Below, one piece after another: positions 29,949-37,199 of a DNA stretch of 64,000 nt (position 1 is the stretch's first letter; each line of letters opens with the position of its first letter). The stretch is from contig NZ_KB907941.1 in NCBI RefSeq assembly GCF_000382285.1, positions 1 to 64,000 of the forward strand. Reading direction: 5' to 3'. The stretch comes from Solimonas variicoloris DSM 15731. Its GTDB lineage: Bacteria; Pseudomonadota; Gammaproteobacteria; Nevskiales; Nevskiaceae. Below the pieces are notes generated by a model. The model worked only from the letters and a program-made list of their open reading frames with translations, was not told where the DNA came from and ran no database searches. Position numbers and translations under genes: made by a program.

Positions 29949-32900
29949 ATGCGTCATCTGCTCACCGGCCTTGTTGCCGCCCTGCTCGCCACCAGCACGC
30001 TCGGCGCCTCGCACACGCCGCCCGAACGCCTGCATCGCCAGACCCTGGGGGCGGCCAGTTCCTCCGCGAGCGCATCGCGATACACGCTGCAACTCACCGA
30101 TGCCTCGCTCGATGACCGCAAGCTGGGGGCGGCGCTCGCCAAGGCCGCTCCGGGCGCCAAGCTGCGCTGGCGCTCGCGCCTGTGGCCGCAGTTCGCAATA
30201 GTCGAGGCACCGGAAGACAGTGCCAGCCGCCTGCAGCGGATACCCGGCGTCAGTGGCGTACAGCTCGCACGCTACACGCCGGCGGCCGTTGCGCGCAGCA
30301 CCGGAAAAACCACCACTGCAGTTCCTCGCCCCGCGCCTGCGAATTCGGCCGCCCTTGCCGAGCTGCCGCTCAGCAATGATCCCCTGGCCGGAAACAACGT
30401 TCGCGTCGGCATCATCAGTACCGGCATCGATTACACGCACGCTGCGCTCGGCGGCCCGGGCACACAGGCCGCATACGACTCCGCCTGGGCCAATGCCGCG
30501 GCGCCGTTCGACGGATTTCCGACCGACGTCGTGGTAGGCGGCATCGACCTCGCCGCCGAGAGCAATCTGGCATCCCGCGGCCGCAATCCGATCGACTCCA
30601 AGCTGCCCTGGGAAGACAGAGGCTTCGTCTATCCGACGGGTCGGGGCACCTATCTCGCCAGCATCGTCCACCGTCTAGCCCCCGGCGCGAAGCTGGTGGC
30701 GCTCAAGGGCAGCGCGGTGTTCGAGAGTGAGGGCGCACGGGTTCTGAAGTACGAGCTCGAAGCGATCGCGGCCGCCTTCGAGGCAGCGCTCGATCCGAAT
30801 CTCGATGGCGATACCTCGGACCACGTCGACGTGCTGCTCTACGATGACGATGCCGGCAGCTTTGCCTACTACGATCCGGGCAGCACCAGCCCGTCTCCCG
30901 ACAGCATGATCGCAGCGATGGTCGCCGGCGTGGCCGCGCGCGGCATTCCGGTCGTCGTCGGCAGCGGCGAGCTCATCTTCGACACCCCCTACAGCATCGC
31001 CCATGCCGGTGCCGTGCCGGATGCCGTCACCGTCGGCGGCCTCCAGCGCATCAGCGACGCCGATGTGGTGACGTCGTTCTCCGGCCGGGGGCCGGTACGT
31101 GGCACGGCGCGCTTCCTGAAGCCCGAGCTGGTGAGCGACAGCGTCTCCATCGACGGCGCCACGGTTGGCAGCGCAGACGGCATGGAAGTGCGGACCGGCG
31201 TCGATGCAGCGGCGGCGCGAATTGCCGCGGCGCTCGCGATCCTGAAGCAGCAGCGCCCTTCGCTGAGCAGCCTCGAGCTGAAGGCCGCGCTGGTCAACAC
31301 CGGCACGCGCGATGTCGGCCACGAGCCCGCACACCCCGACCAGCCCGCTGATGTCAGCCGTTCCGGTCTAGGCCGGGAGAACCTCGAAGGCGCAATCGCC
31401 ACGCCCCTGCTCGCCTGGGATGAGGATACCCGCCAGCCTTCGATCTATCTGGGCTTCAAGGAAGTGTCCGGAACGCAGCGCTATGTTCGCCATCTCCGCA
31501 TCCGGAACCTATCGAATCAAGCGCAGAGCTACTCCCTTCAGGTTCAGAGGGTCGGCGAAAAGCCGGGATTCTCCGCGCTGAAGATCGAGGCGCCGGTCAG
31601 TGCCCAGGTCCCCGCCGGCAGCAGCATCAGCATTCCGGTCGCCTTCGAACTGGATGCCGCAAAGCTGCCGCCCTGGACCCTGCGTGAAACCGGCGATTTC
31701 AGCGCCGCGAAATGGTCTCAGGCCGAGCTTTCCGGTTATCTGGTGCTGTCGCGGCCGACGGCGCCGGACGTGGCCGTCAGCTGGCTGTTGATGGCGCGCG
31801 CGAAGACCAGCATTACCAAGTTCGCCGACACGATGCGCGAGAGCTACAGCAGTCAATTCTGGCAACAGTACCTCGGCATCGACGAAACCTTCGAACTGAC
31901 GCAGGACTTCCGCAACGACAACCTTCACGCCGCGGACTTCGCCGTTTACCCCGTCGTCGCACGCGTCGACTACCCCGAATACGACAAGCAGAGGGCGTCC
32001 GGCAACATGCTGCGCTATGTCGGCGTTCGCGTCTTCGACGAAGCCGGATGCAGCTCCGGGCAGAAGCTGTCGATCGCGGCAAGTTTTTTCTCCCCGGCCG
32101 CGATCGCGCTGGCCAATTACTTCGAGCGCGGCTCGCAATTGCTGTACTGGGAGATCACGCCCAACCCTTTCAGGTCCGACGTCACGACCGACACCATCGG
32201 CTACGGCTGGGTTGAAATTGATGCCCAGGGCCAGCCCTTCACGACCTACATCGATCTGACGATCCCCTACGACCCGAGCAATCCGACGGGGCGCTATCGT
32301 CGTGCCAAGCTCCCCGCCAAGATGGCCAGCCATACGCGCAACGTCGTCAGCGAGGTCTGCCTCGATGAGCTCTATCACGACGACGTCACGAGCCCTGCCG
32401 CGTTCGATGCCAGATTGCGCTGGGTGTTCTCGACGGATCGCGACGCGATTCCCCGCCAGGAGAACGACCTCTTCCTGCACAATCCCATGCGGCCCGGCTA
32501 TGACGCCTTGTTACGCGAACCGGACGGCTCGCCGAGCAATTACGTCGAGCGGCTCGGCGCCGCAGGCGGCGCCACCCTGACCTTGACCGGGGCGAAGCAG
32601 GATGGCGGCATCGGCCCGATGTCGGAGGGGCGCCTCTACGAGCGCGACGGCTTCCTGCTCATCAGCCTGACCGACGACTTCGCGCTGTTCTCTCCGATCG
32701 ACTACAGCGAAGTGTCGTCCGTTGCGGCGCCTCGCGCCGATCAGACCTTCTCGGTGCGAGAAGATGCCGCATCGGGCACCGTGCTGGGACGCATAGAGAC
32801 CGATGTCGAGCAGTTCTTCGGCATCGGCAAGACATCCGAATTTTATCGGCTCGTGCTCGCCGGCGCGGTTCCGGGCGATCCCTTCAGCATCACGGATGAA

Positions 32901-35900
32901 GGAGATCTGGTGCTGAGCAACCCCGCCGGGCTCGACCACGAGATGGCGGCCACCCTGATCGTGCCGGTATACGCGCAGTACGGGCAGGCCCTGGGCGTGA
33001 CCGTGGACCTCGCCGTGCAGGTGATGGACGTCAATGACAACTCGCCGGAATGGATCGGCGAAGGCAGCGCACTCCCGGACGCTGCGACGAAAACCCCATA
33101 TCGCGTCGCGCTCGGCGCCAGCTTCCGCGACGCCGACGGCACGCCGCTGACTTATACGGCGAGCGATTTGCCGGCCGGCCTCGCACTGGACGCGATGACC
33201 GGCGACCTGCACGGCACGCCGACACTGGCGGGCGATTTCAGCGTCACGATCAAGGCCGACGACGGCGAGCGCAGTGCCGAGAAGGTGCTGGCGCTGAAAG
33301 TGCGCGGGACCGATGTCGTGCACAAGGACGGCGGCGGCGCCTGGTCGCCGGCGGCCGGTCTGCTGCTGGTCGTGATGGCGGGCCTGCGCGCGACACTACG
33401 CCGGCGCACGAAGCGCGCGGGCTTGGTGCTCGGCCTGCTGTCGGCGGGCATCCTGTCGGCGGCGGGCGCACTGCCGGCGCACGCCGCCGAAGAGCCGAGC
33501 CGGCCGCAGCCGCGCAGCAGCACGGCGACGGCGCTCAAGGGCGGGGCCGCGGCCGCGCACCTGCGCGACGAGCACGGCCGCGCGCTGTACTTCGTGCACC
33601 TGAAGGATGAACCGCTGGCCCGTTACGACGGGCGTCTCAAGAATCTGGCGGCGACCAGCCTCGCCGCCAGCGCCGGCCGCAACGCGACGAAGCGCGGCGT
33701 GCTGGACGTCAAGAGCGCGCGCAGCATCGCCTATCTCGACTACCTGCAAGCCCGCCAGGCCAGCGCGCTCAGCGGCATACAGCGCAAGATCGGTCGCGCC
33801 GCGGCGCCGCGCCAGCAGTTCCGTATCGCGCTCAACGCTCTGACGCTGTATCTGAGCGAGGCCGAGGCACAGTCGCTGCGCGGCCTGGCAGCGGTGCGCA
33901 CGGTCGAACGTGCCGAGCCACGCTACCTGCAGACCGATCGGGGCCCGCAGTGGATAGGAGCCCGCAACGTCTGGGCCGGCGTGCCGGCTGCATTGCCGAC
34001 GCAGGGCGAAGGCATCATCGTCGGCGTGATCGACACCGGCATCCGGCCGGAAGCGCCGTCGTTCGCAGCCGTCGGCGGCGACGGCTACCAGCACCGCAAT
34101 CCGCTCGGCGACGGCGTCTACCTCGGCGACTGCGTGCCACGCCCTGATCTATGCAATGACAAGCTGATCGGGATCGTGAGCTACGAGGAAATCACGTCGA
34201 GCTACGCCCATCTGCGCGAACCCAACGGCATCGATTACAACGGTCATGGCACGCACACCGCTTCGACCGTTGCCGGAAACGTCCTCAGCGAGGTGCCGAT
34301 CTACAACGCGCTCGGCCAGCTCGCGCAGCAGTCCTTTCCCCAGATCAGCGGCGTTGCACCGCATGCCAATATCGTCTCCTATCAAGTCTGCTTTCCGGGC
34401 GACGGCGATCCCTGCGTGCCGGATATGACGGTGCTCGCCGTCGAGCACGCGATCGAGCACGGCGTGCGCGTACTGAACTACTCGATTGGCGGGCCCATCA
34501 GAAGTCCCTGGGAATCTGCCGACGGCCTAGCCTTCCTTTCCGCACGCGAAGCCGGCATCCACGTGGCCGTCTCGGCTGGCAACAATGGGCCGGACGCCAG
34601 CACGATCAGCTCTCCGGGCAATGCCCCGTGGGTAACGACGGTCGCTGCGAGCACGCATGACCGCGCGTACACGTCGAAGACGATCGGCGACTTCAGCGGC
34701 GGCGTGCCGCCATCGACGATCACCGGCCGCGGCGTCACCGGCGGCTATACCGGCGGCGTCGTTGATGCCGCCCGCTACGGCGATGCGCTGTGCCAGGCAC
34801 CGTTCTCGGCCGGAACCTTCGCGGGGCAGATCGTGATCTGCTCGCGCGGGCAGAACGCACGGGTCGAGAAAGGCGCAAACGTGCTCGCTGGTGGCGCCGG
34901 CGGCATGATCCTCGCCAATGTCGATTCTGCTGCCGATGACGTCATCGAGGATTTCCACGTCCTGCCGGCGATCCACGTCGACTTCGCGTCGGGCACCGCG
35001 CTGCGCAACTGGCTCGCCAGCGACAGCGGCGCACCGCACTTGGCGACGATCAGCGCCAGCGCGCCGGCCCCCGACCCGTCGGCCGCCGACATCGTCGCCG
35101 ATTTCAGCTCGCGAGGTCCTGCGCTGCCGTACAAGGACTGGACCAAGCCGGATATCGCCGCCCCTGGCGTGAACATCTATGCGGCCTTCAGCCCCGATCT
35201 TCTGTGGCCGGCCGAAGGCGTGTATCCGGCACCGTACGGCTTCCTCAGCGGCACTTCGATGGCGAGCCCGCATGTGGCCGGCACGCTGGCGCTGCTCGCC
35301 GCCGCGCATCCGGACTGGACGCCGGCCGAAGCGCAGTCGGCGCTGGTCGCGACCGCGAAGGCCGACATGCGCACCGAATCGGGCGAAGCCGCCGGCGTGT
35401 TCGAGGTCGGCACGGGCCGCGTCCGCGCCGAGGCCGCCCTGCAGGCCGGTCTGCTGCTCCACGAGGACGCGACCCGCTATCAGGCAGCCGATCCGCAATC
35501 CGGCGGCTCGCCCGGGACGCTGAACCTGCCCTCGTTGGTCGCCGGCTCGTGTGTGCTGCAATGCCGCTGGATACGTACGGTTCGCGCGGCACGCGCCGGC
35601 ACCTACACGGCCAGCACCAGCACCGATGTACCGAACACCGGCATTGCGGTGGAACCCGCGAGCTTCACTCTGGCCGCCGGGCAGACGCAGGCCTTGACCG
35701 TCACGCTCGCCGCCAGCGGATCGGCCAGCGCAGGCAGCGTCGGCGGCAGCGTTGAATTGCGCTCGGACGACGCGACGCAGCCGACGCTGCGCTTCCCCGT
35801 CCGCGCCGAGCTGCGCACGAGCGATGTGCCGGCGTACACGCGCATCACCGCCACCGGCAAGCAAGGCACGCAGCGCATCGAAGGACTGCAGTCCACCGGC

Positions 35901-37199
35901 GGCGCCGTGCAGTACGGTCTGTGGGGCTGGAGCATCGCGCAGCGCTATCCGGCGACCTTGTTCCCCGATCCGACGCCGGACGATTTCGTGCCGGATCATC
36001 CGGAAAGCCTGCAGGTCGTGCCGCTCGAGGTCCGCAGCAACACCAAGCTGCTGGTCGTGCGCATCGTCGATGCGACGGCCAATGATCTCGATCTGTTCAT
36101 AGGTCTCGACGGCAATCTCAATGGCCGGCCGGATGTCGCCGAAAGCGCGTCCTTCTACTGCATGAGCGCCGACGACGACGCCGACGAGGAATGCGTGATC
36201 GTCGATCCGCAGCCGGGCAGCTACTGGATCGCCGTGCACAACTACGAGGGCAACGCCGCCGGCGACACGCACGCGCTGGTGGTGGCGCAGGTCAGGAACG
36301 GGGTCAACGGCCTGACCATGAGCGGCCCGGCCTCGACCACTTTCGGCGAGCCGTACGCGGTGGACATCGGCTGGAACCTGCCGGCACTGCGCTCCGCAGA
36401 TACCGCGTTCGCGGTGTTCTCGGCGCGCCCGCTCGACGCCGTCGGTACCGACAACGGCCCGTTCGGCATCGTCGAACTGGCGCGTACCGAGGATGGCGTC
36501 ACGGTGGACACGGAAACGACCGAGCTGCTGTCCGGCGCTGCGCTGCGCTACACGCTGCAGCTCGCCGGCAGCGCGCAGGCGACGACCGTCGACGTCGAGA
36601 TCCCGGAGCCGCTCAGCGTCGAATCCGCCGAGGGCGCCAGCGTCGACGGCGCGCGTCTGCGCTGGACGCTGCCCGCCGGCGCATCCGCCACGCAGTACGC
36701 GCTGGTGCTGGCGACGTCGGCGGTGCAGCTGACGCAGACCGTGGCGCTGCCCGTCGAGTACCGTCTCGGCGACGGCGAAGCCCGCGTCGCCGACGTCCCT
36801 TCCGTGCGCATCGAAGGCTATCCGCAGGCGCGCATCGACGGCGCTGCCAGCCTCGAGCTGCAGGCGCGGCGCGGCGAGACCCTGACGCTGACGACGGCGG
36901 GCAGCAGCGGCGCGCTCGACGGCGACACGCTGCAGTTCCGCTGGCAGCAGACCGCCGGCCCGGCCGCGCCGATCGTCAGCGCCCCGGACGGCGGCTACAC
37001 GCTGGCCATACCCGACGCCGCCGCCGGCCAGACGCTGCGCTACGCGCTCGTCGCCAGCAACGGGCGGCGCGAGTCCGAACCGGCGACGCTGAGCGTCACG
37101 GTCGCGGCCAGCGGCGGCGGAGGCGGCGGCGCCATGGACGCTGCCGGCCTGCTCGGCCTGCTGGCGGTCGCGGCGATCTGCCGGCGGCGACGATCCTGA
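29949..37199 (+). CDS. Giant fused double subtilase: dead S8 domain + active S8 protease, each with a sorting signal
   Basis: The frame runs 2416 residues without a stop. Part 1 (1-1156) has a signal peptide (MRHLLTGLVAALLATSTLGA), an S8 fold in which all catalytic positions are replaced (Asp by Ser157, His by Arg232, oxyanion Asn by Glu341, Ser by Val/Asp at 418-419), a long middle region, a cadherin-type motif DVNDN (1027-1031), an Ig-like domain and a GGGAW-hydrophobic-RRRTKR tail. Part 2 (from about 1143) begins with a second signal peptide ending PAHA and has an intact triad: Asp1362 (IDTGI), His1433 (NGHGTHTAST) and Ser1770 (GTSMASPHVAG), plus Asn1545, a PA-like insert near 1600-1690, beta domains and a final GGGGGG-hydrophobic-RRRR tail. 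It looks like two secreted, GlyGly-CTERM-type proteins now in one frame; a sequencing error that removed a stop is possible. ATG 29949 has GAAGGGG upstream. Confidence 0.85.
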   Translation: MRHLLTGLVAALLATSTLGASHTPPERLHRQTLGAASSSASASRYTLQLTDASLDDRKLGAALAKAAPGAKLRWRSRLWPQFAIVEAPEDSASRLQRIPGVSGVQLARYTPAAVARSTGKTTTAVPRPAPANSAALAELPLSNDPLAGNNVRVGIISTGIDYTHAALGGPGTQAAYDSAWANAAAPFDGFPTDVVVGGIDLAAESNLASRGRNPIDSKLPWEDRGFVYPTGRGTYLASIVHRLAPGAKLVALKGSAVFESEGARVLKYELEAIAAAFEAALDPNLDGDTSDHVDVLLYDDDAGSFAYYDPGSTSPSPDSMIAAMVAGVAARGIPVVVGSGELIFDTPYSIAHAGAVPDAVTVGGLQRISDADVVTSFSGRGPVRGTARFLKPELVSDSVSIDGATVGSADGMEVRTGVDAAAARIAAALAILKQQRPSLSSLELKAALVNTGTRDVGHEPAHPDQPADVSRSGLGRENLEGAIATPLLAWDEDTRQPSIYLGFKEVSGTQRYVRHLRIRNLSNQAQSYSLQVQRVGEKPGFSALKIEAPVSAQVPAGSSISIPVAFELDAAKLPPWTLRETGDFSAAKWSQAELSGYLVLSRPTAPDVAVSWLLMARAKTSITKFADTMRESYSSQFWQQYLGIDETFELTQDFRNDNLHAADFAVYPVVARVDYPEYDKQRASGNMLRYVGVRVFDEAGCSSGQKLSIAASFFSPAAIALANYFERGSQLLYWEITPNPFRSDVTTDTIGYGWVEIDAQGQPFTTYIDLTIPYDPSNPTGRYRRAKLPAKMASHTRNVVSEVCLDELYHDDVTSPAAFDARLRWVFSTDRDAIPRQENDLFLHNPMRPGYDALLREPDGSPSNYVERLGAAGGATLTLTGAKQDGGIGPMSEGRLYERDGFLLISLTDDFALFSPIDYSEVSSVAAPRADQTFSVREDAASGTVLGRIETDVEQFFGIGKTSEFYRLVLAGAVPGDPFSITDEGDLVLSNPAGLDHEMAATLIVPVYAQYGQALGVTVDLAVQVMDVNDNSPEWIGEGSALPDAATKTPYRVALGASFRDADGTPLTYTASDLPAGLALDAMTGDLHGTPTLAGDFSVTIKADDGERSAEKVLALKVRGTDVVHKDGGGAWSPAAGLLLVVMAGLRATLRRRTKRAGLVLGLLSAGILSAAGALPAHAAEEPSRPQPRSSTATALKGGAAAAHLRDEHGRALYFVHLKDEPLARYDGRLKNLAATSLAASAGRNATKRGVLDVKSARSIAYLDYLQARQASALSGIQRKIGRAAAPRQQFRIALNALTLYLSEAEAQSLRGLAAVRTVERAEPRYLQTDRGPQWIGARNVWAGVPAALPTQGEGIIVGVIDTGIRPEAPSFAAVGGDGYQHRNPLGDGVYLGDCVPRPDLCNDKLIGIVSYEEITSSYAHLREPNGIDYNGHGTHTASTVAGNVLSEVPIYNALGQLAQQSFPQISGVAPHANIVSYQVCFPGDGDPCVPDMTVLAVEHAIEHGVRVLNYSIGGPIRSPWESADGLAFLSAREAGIHVAVSAGNNGPDASTISSPGNAPWVTTVAASTHDRAYTSKTIGDFSGGVPPSTITGRGVTGGYTGGVVDAARYGDALCQAPFSAGTFAGQIVICSRGQNARVEKGANVLAGGAGGMILANVDSAADDVIEDFHVLPAIHVDFASGTALRNWLASDSGAPHLATISASAPAPDPSAADIVADFSSRGPALPYKDWTKPDIAAPGVNIYAAFSPDLLWPAEGVYPAPYGFLSGTSMASPHVAGTLALLAAAHPDWTPAEAQSALVATAKADMRTESGEAAGVFEVGTGRVRAEAALQAGLLLHEDATRYQAADPQSGGSPGTLNLPSLVAGSCVLQCRWIRTVRAARAGTYTASTSTDVPNTGIAVEPASFTLAAGQTQALTVTLAASGSASAGSVGGSVELRSDDATQPTLRFPVRAELRTSDVPAYTRITATGKQGTQRIEGLQSTGGAVQYGLWGWSIAQRYPATLFPDPTPDDFVPDHPESLQVVPLEVRSNTKLLVVRIVDATANDLDLFIGLDGNLNGRPDVAESASFYCMSADDDADEECVIVDPQPGSYWIAVHNYEGNAAGDTHALVVAQVRNGVNGLTMSGPASTTFGEPYAVDIGWNLPALRSADTAFAVFSARPLDAVGTDNGPFGIVELARTEDGVTVDTETTELLSGAALRYTLQLAGSAQATTVDVEIPEPLSVESAEGASVDGARLRWTLPAGASATQYALVLATSAVQLTQTVALPVEYRLGDGEARVADVPSVRIEGYPQARIDGAASLELQARRGETLTLTTAGSSGALDGDTLQFRWQQTAGPAAPIVSAPDGGYTLAIPDAAAGQTLRYALVASNGRRESEPATLSVTVAASGGGGGGAMDAAGLLGLLAVAAICRRRRS
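33330..33485 (+). other. Junction: internal C-terminal sorting signal overlapping a signal peptide
   Basis: These 52 codons hold GGGAWSPAAG, a hydrophobic stretch and RRRTKR (residues 1128-1156), the layout of a GlyGly-CTERM tail. They are followed at once by a second hydrophobic stretch ending LPAHA (1157-1179), a normal signal peptide. The basic RRRTKR would serve both parts. An in-frame ATG at 33375 could start a separate second protein, but no ribosome site precedes it. Confidence 0.65.

Follow-up and report, generated by a model that had tools for sequence, protein, structure and literature searches.

Solimonas variicoloris carries one natural frame for a predicted exported polyprotein, in which a pseudo-subtilase is joined to an intact subtilase through an internal GlyGly-type tail and a second signal peptide

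The fused subtilase frame

The window analysed here, a stretch of 64,000 nucleotides from Solimonas variicoloris DSM 15731, belongs to contig 17 of a draft genome of 48 contigs (labelled G000). It contains a single open reading frame whose product comprises, from N- to C-terminus, a predicted signal peptide, a putatively dead subtilase, an Ig-like domain, a GlyGly-type tail, a second predicted signal peptide, an intact subtilase and a second tail (Table 1). The mechanical start of the frame is GTG 29877, upstream of ATG 29949, and the latter is preceded by a Shine-Dalgarno-like AAGG. The first-pass annotation had described one frame of 2416 residues at 29949-37199, and this frame is indeed open throughout. 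The landmarks of the join also lie where they had been placed, with GGG at residues 1128 to 1130, an Arg cluster extending to residue 1156, PAHA at residues 1176 to 1179, and M1143 encoded by ATG 33375.

Table 1. Features of the fused frame, in nucleotide positions of the window.
Feature	Position	Strand	Evidence
Single open reading frame, 2416 aa, predicted polyprotein of a pseudo-subtilase and an active-site-intact subtilase	29949..37199	+	Sequence; same frame in S. flava
First signal peptide, residues 1-20, MRHLLTGLVAALLATSTLGA	29949..30008	+	Sequence; cleavage site by eye; SD-like AAGG upstream
First S8 (PF00082) domain, residues 148-454, predicted catalytically dead	30390..31310	+	41.2 bits (cut-off 21.8); alignment; dN/dS
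Catalytic Asp position, Ser157	30417..30419	+	Alignment; PDB sequence search
Catalytic His position, Arg232 (GRGTY replacing GHGTH)	30642..30644	+	Alignment
Oxyanion-hole Asn position, Glu341	30969..30971	+	Profile alignment; stretch not aligned by MAFFT
Catalytic Ser position, Asp419 (GVDAA replacing GTSMA)	31203..31205	+	MAFFT; profile alignment; PDB sequence search
Ig-like domain He_PIG, residues 1041-1118	33069..33302	+	PF05345, 40.2 bits (cut-off 24)
Internal GlyGly-type tail (GGG, hydrophobic helix, RATLRRRTKR), residues 1128-1156	33330..33416	+	Tripartite sequence; TIGR03501 12.1 bits, under 15.5
Internal signal peptide, residues 1157-1179, predicted signal peptidase I cut AHA/A	33417..33485	+	By eye
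Second S8 domain, residues 1353-1810, triad intact (D1362, H1433, N1545, S1770)	34005..35378	+	PF00082; alignment
PA domain within second S8 domain	34758..35003	+	PF02225, 42.5 bits
fn3_6 domain after second S8 domain	35520..35777	+	PF17766, 31 bits (cut-off 26.4)
Terminal GlyGly-type tail, GGGGGGAMDAAGLLGLLAVAAICRRRRS	37113..37196	+	Sequence; TIGR03901 18.6 bits vs cut-off 20

The Pfam S8 family matches the protein with 187.9 bits in two stretches, the better of which is residues 1353 to 1810. Two subtilases had been proposed on first inspection, and S8 matches are indeed present in both halves, but the Asp/His/Ser triad and oxyanion-hole Asn of an active S8 domain are found in the second domain and entirely replaced in the first. 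The replaced Asp, His and Ser positions were read from a MAFFT alignment with six active S8 domains of the order (two from contig 22, the second domain of the window's own protein, and those of G060, G064 and G066) and the Asn position from a profile alignment, and a PDB sequence search aligned the Asp- and Ser-region stretches in the same way. Asp161 was considered as a retained catalytic Asp and rejected, since the alignment makes it non-catalytic and assigns the catalytic column to S157. All four replacements (S157, R232, E341 and D419) are identical in Solimonas flava. The dN/dS of the pseudo-S8 domain (residues 141 to 500) is 0.127, as low as the 0.158 of the active S8 domain. Judged by its residues, the first 'subtilase' is a pseudoprotease, yet a conserved one. 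AlphaFold2 gave models of low confidence, with a pLDDT of 29 for the N-terminal half and of 35 for the pseudo-S8 domain run with eight sequences. Cadherin/Ig-like domains had been annotated as well; the Ig-like part is borne out by He_PIG, whereas the cadherin label comes from a DxNDNxP motif at residue 1027, which we take to be a cadherin motif, the sole Pfam cadherin match being far under its cut-off (13.2 vs 35).

At the join, the internal tail runs into a hydrophobic stretch (residues 1157 to 1175) followed by PAHA (1176 to 1179) and AEEPSR. Both tails of the protein are tripartite, with a Gly motif without Cys, a hydrophobic stretch and a basic cluster, as in the definition of GlyGly-CTERM (PMC3237569, in the part available to us), and the invariant Cys of MYXO-CTERM is absent from both Gly motifs. 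The C-terminal location that characterizes GlyGly-CTERM is seen for the second tail and not for the first, which lies at residues 1128 to 1156 of 2416. With TIGR03501 (cut-off 15.5) the internal tail scores 12.1 bits and the terminal tail is unlisted at E-values up to 10; the MYXO-CTERM model TIGR03901 (cut-off 20) gives 16.9 bits for the internal and 18.6 bits for the terminal tail, so that both fail. The tails are therefore GlyGly-CTERM-like in build, as had been annotated, but neither is a certified member, because both lie under the curated cut-offs of the two models. A secretory polyprotein would combine one frame and two or more export signals with separate mature products; the frame and the signals are seen in the sequence.

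The same fusion was found in S. flava DSM 18980 (G038, taken as that strain), in a frame of 2446 amino acids from stop to stop. Identity between the two proteins is 91% over the first half and 93% over the second. They differ by many substitutions but are colinear through the join, which has neither a stop nor an indel in S. flava. Within the part they share, the alignment has a single gap, of one Gly, in the terminal tail. The GG motif, helix, Arg cluster and AHA/A site are all kept, as is M1143. Between the two species dN/dS is 0.22 for the first half, 0.21 for the second and 0.20 for the indel-free junction (residues 1126 to 1195). The colinear open frame in S. flava, together with the low dN/dS and the indel-free junction, indicates that the 2416-residue frame is real, natural and kept by selection. 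A stop lost through assembly or sequencing error, an option raised by the first-pass annotation and conceivable in a draft of 48 contigs, is excluded because the separately assembled S. flava has the same frame with no indel or stop at the join despite many substitutions, and a decaying gene is extremely improbable given a dN/dS of about 0.2 in both halves.

Translated searches matched the first half in two of 58 genomes of the family (E up to 1e-20) and two of 85 genomes of the order (E up to 1e-12), both matches falling within one genus, in the window's genome and G038. In the class it was matched in one of 369 genomes, the window's own (E up to 1e-25); this sample was an even draw, with at most two candidates scored per listed genome. 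All first-half searches scored the best candidates per genome. A wider scan of genome contigs returned one locus, that of S. flava DSM 18980. Among the genomes searched, the pair is present in two sister species only, and a relative carrying its halves as separate genes was not found in these searches. The comparison with homologues proposed earlier thus returned the fusion and not the separate-gene version of this pair; the reading as a natural fusion of two exported parts, with a sorting-type tail and a signal peptide inside the chain, is supported. The second half alone has relatives in G060, G064, G066 and G067, with 42-45% identity and frames of 772-1075 amino acids.

Internal tails followed by export signals in other genes

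In 11 genomes of the genus, 77 rows were found and 72 read, five being without fetched sequence; G041:C4 (twice), G045:C20 and G043:2998202 were dropped from the count as they have no GG tail. Eight of the 68 GlyGly tails read are internal and 60 are terminal. All eight internal tails are followed by a second export signal, vs four of the 60 terminal tails when read past their stop (4, 1 and 3 of 60 in the three frames). The rule applied was an 11-residue uncharged hydrophobic core with a basic residue before it and a small-x-small motif or lipobox after it, and was set post hoc with the joins already seen. Fisher's test gives p = 7e-8 for a post hoc rule and non-independent rows, which represent about six distinct events since three rows belong to a single orthologous family and two come from the same frame. 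Taken alone, six of the eight internal tails pass TIGR03501 (21.4, 20.4, 20.4, 18.6, 17.8 and 15.8 bits), with those of G041 (14.6 bits) and the window (12.1 bits) under its cut-off. The other internal tails of the window's own genome were first flagged by TIGR03501 matches.

For the order and class we used a profile (A3) built from 11 tail-plus-signal joins; these searches thus favour joins, whereas the genus count is unbiased. Among the matches listed for the order, 61 rows were read, comprising nine internal tails, 50 terminal tails and two that are not tails; a row whose match contained a stop was counted as terminal unread, and some rows without a stop were left unread (e.g. G022:C399 and G027:C480). 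For the class, 10 of 15 rows outside the window's own genome were read, with five internal and five terminal tails. In all, at least 27 joins were read in 21 genomes, many of them between a tail protein and an OmpA-like barrel. At least 22 lie in 16 genomes of the order, in four genera of one family, and at least five in five genomes outside the order, in two further families of the class. In the 27 joins, the second segment ends with a small residue or Val at -3 and a small residue at -1 or, in two of them (G039 and G355), before a lipobox-like Cys, the cuts being placed by eye. Six of the 27 have no in-frame ATG, GTG or TTG in the scanned stretch. From their sequences, the joins are recurrent rather than a one-off, which suggests a little-noticed route to several surface proteins from one chain.

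Two further frames of the window's genome illustrate this arrangement. The first (L027, G000:C22:26619-36305, minus strand) extends over 3229 amino acids from stop to stop and comprises three tail-bearing proteases and two tail/signal-peptide joins; its order according to Pfam is M36 metallopeptidase, tail, signal peptide, S8 with kelch, tail, signal peptide, S8 with kelch, tail. The rhombosortase-dependent M36 model NF038111 scores 1096 bits (cut-off 1700) in an alignment that runs to 1313/1315 and stops at the first internal tail, and is outscored by the myxosortase-dependent M36 model with 1219 bits (own cut-off 1500). The second frame (L028, G000:C6:144179-146578, plus strand) has 800 amino acids, with a Calx-beta protein, a GlyGly tail, a signal peptide and an OmpA-like barrel. 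The OmpA porin model PRK10808 begins, at model position 8, in the internal signal peptide. Relatives of this fusion are nearly full length in G038, G041 and G018, in G006 a single frame matches in two pieces, and single-frame relatives occur in other genera of the family. The barrel partner was at one point considered 'OmpW-like', a label rejected as Pfam identifies it as OmpA-like (PF01389). This family was found in three of four fused barrel proteins tested (L028, L103 and L184) and is absent from L171. Outside the order, the joins L212, L215, L219 and L222 precede OmpA-family porins, with an outer-membrane barrel and an OmpA domain according to Pfam in three of the four, and L224 precedes a lipobox-like Cys.

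Separate-gene versions were found for other joins. The partner after the join in G039:C13 (L206) is a CehA/McbA metallohydrolase-like protein with a lipobox-like Cys; a protein of G003:C3 (L205), 85.6% identical to the G039 upstream half (residues 210 to 849), ends in TGATGA directly after its tail. In G054:C127 (L154) and G007:C399 (L199), the tail protein and the OmpA-like barrel are separate genes in different frames that overlap by ATGA, an arrangement that suggests a functional pair of a surface protein and an outer-membrane barrel. In four barrel homologues encoded by genes of their own, an N-terminal signal peptide takes the place that the internal one has in the fusions, which argues that the internal segment corresponds to a real signal peptide. 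Judged from these genes, the barrel pair occurs in two arrangements, joined in frame or as overlapping genes. In a tree of 19 barrels, fused and separate versions are not cleanly grouped and four changes are needed, at least two of them forced. An internal ATG preceded by AGGAGG is present in G015:C93, which may be two genes.

Proposed processing and alternatives

A search of the genome for a rhombosortase, as proposed in the first-pass annotation, was positive. TIGR03902 has one clear match of 140-141 bits (cut-off 84) and a second of 33.9 bits, under the cut-off. The rhombosortase gene (L008 5705-9944, G000:C3) adjoins, and is divergent from, the pseudopilin genes of a type II secretion system, which encode GspG, a GspH-like protein (79.2 vs cut-off 80), GspJ and GspK. 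A rhombosortase over the cut-off is present in 64 of 85 genomes of the order, including all 16 order genomes with joins; because it is so widespread, its presence says little for cutting.

We consider it fairly probable that the window's frame encodes one exported polyprotein that is processed by two enzymes, signal peptidase acting on the internal signal peptide and rhombosortase on the tail. Cleavage into two products, one of the fates proposed earlier for the fusion, is thus our best reading of the sequence. According to the positive-inside rule, the Arg cluster is placed in the cytosol. Signal peptide 1 would take the chain into the Sec channel, the tail helix would halt transfer and leave its Arg cluster on the cytosolic side, and signal peptide 2 would restart transfer, with the Arg cluster of the tail doubling as its n-region. 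Signal peptidase I would then cut after AHA (1179/1180), freeing the active protease half, and rhombosortase or another rhomboid protease would cut the GG motif of each tail. Both products would exit separately via type II secretion, possibly as lipid-modified surface proteins. Through the fusion, the pseudoprotease and the protease would be produced 1:1, and the former may be the latter's chaperone, its inhibitor or a partner that binds substrate. A probable origin of such fusions is a pair of adjacent genes with coupled translation, one ending in a tail and the next beginning with a signal peptide, that come to share a frame.

Signal peptidase could also cut while the weak internal tail escapes rhombosortase, in which case the pseudoprotease half would be held in the inner membrane as a hairpin and the protease released and sorted. 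The sub-threshold scores of the internal tail with TIGR03501 and the MYXO-CTERM model would fit such an escape, but GG, helix and Arg cluster are kept in both species and most internal tails of the genus pass the TIGR03501 cut-off by themselves, those of G041 and the window excepted; we regard this course as unlikely. Were the join left uncut, the product would be a single protein of 2416 amino acids, a hairpin-anchored pair of S8 domains. This is decidedly improbable: the frame is one and conserved, and a hairpin could form from a tail helix and the hydrophobic segment after it, but the AHA/A site is kept in both species and equivalent joins precede OmpA-like barrels and lipobox-like Cys proteins that need release. 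OmpA-like barrels must leave the inner membrane to work.

Translation of the second half alone from an internal start, with the fusion product as a by-product, seems very improbable. Internal initiation at ATG 33375 had been put forward earlier; its Met is conserved, an ATG with an SD-like sequence occurs at a few joins (G015 AGGAGG, G008 GAGG, G006a AAGG), and S. flava has a GTG at -20 with GAGG upstream. However, no Shine-Dalgarno sequence precedes ATG 33375, and internal initiation cannot be general because of the six joins without an in-frame start codon in the scanned stretch. Moreover, as there is no stop at the join, the first half could not be made alone.

Relation to known sorting and polyprotein systems

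In the available part of Haft and Varghese 2011 (PMC3237569), sorting tails are described as extreme C-terminal and as the sole membrane segment besides the signal peptide, C-terminal location is a curation criterion for GlyGly-CTERM, and none of 219 proteins has a transmembrane helix between signal peptide and tail. The join departs from this described rule, since no such helix is found in those 219 proteins. The portions at hand of two further papers describe GlyGly-CTERM as an independent targeting motif (PMC13393428) and report that rhombosortase cuts the GG motif of VesB from Vibrio cholerae before type II secretion, VesB being modified with a glycerophosphoethanolamine-containing moiety (PMC6219818). 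The window's protein resembles such substrates in its signal peptide, protease-type passenger, GG motif, helix and Arg cluster, and in the rhombosortase and type II secretion genes of its genome. It differs from them in that its first tail is internal and followed by a signal peptide and a protein, and in that both tails are under the cut-off.

CspBA of Clostridioides difficile (PMC3567191, in the part available) is likewise a gene fusion of an active subtilase and a pseudo-subtilase, and is processed between the domains. Here, by contrast, the order is reversed, there is no spore context, and the join consists of a sorting tail and a signal peptide. FbcH, the cytochrome b/c1 precursor of Bradyrhizobium, is encoded by one gene that gives two proteins through a signal peptidase cut at an internal signal peptide, and offers a precedent for such a cut by signal peptidase I; it yields respiratory membrane proteins, however, and has no C-terminal sorting tail. 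In secretory polyproteins of enveloped viruses, a stop-transfer helix is followed by an internal signal peptide that is cut by signal peptidase, whereas the joins described here concern cellular surface proteins of bacteria and contain a rhomboid-type sorting tail. Our literature search found no paper on bacterial polyproteins with internal signals or on how FbcH is processed, and 'polyprotein' was absent from the matches listed.

Whether bacteria with a rhombosortase use a general polyprotein strategy, in which tails joined in frame to the next signal peptide give two or three products in a fixed ratio, is a question on which we are evenly divided. Such a strategy, with the Arg cluster of the tail doubling as n-region and with signal peptidase and rhombosortase as the cutting enzymes, would deliver surface proteins, outer-membrane proteins or lipoproteins and, in the window, a pseudoprotease with its cognate protease. 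Tails of this internal kind, each leading into a further export signal, were found in three families of the class, one of them within the order and two outside it. If the proposed processing is true, bacterial envelopes would be partly built from polyproteins, the annotation of long 'proteases' and 'OmpA proteins' could mislead, and stop-transfer segments within a chain could be substrates of rhomboid proteases. An inactive but conserved subtilase that is produced in equal amount with an active one would also constitute a testable pseudoprotease partnership.
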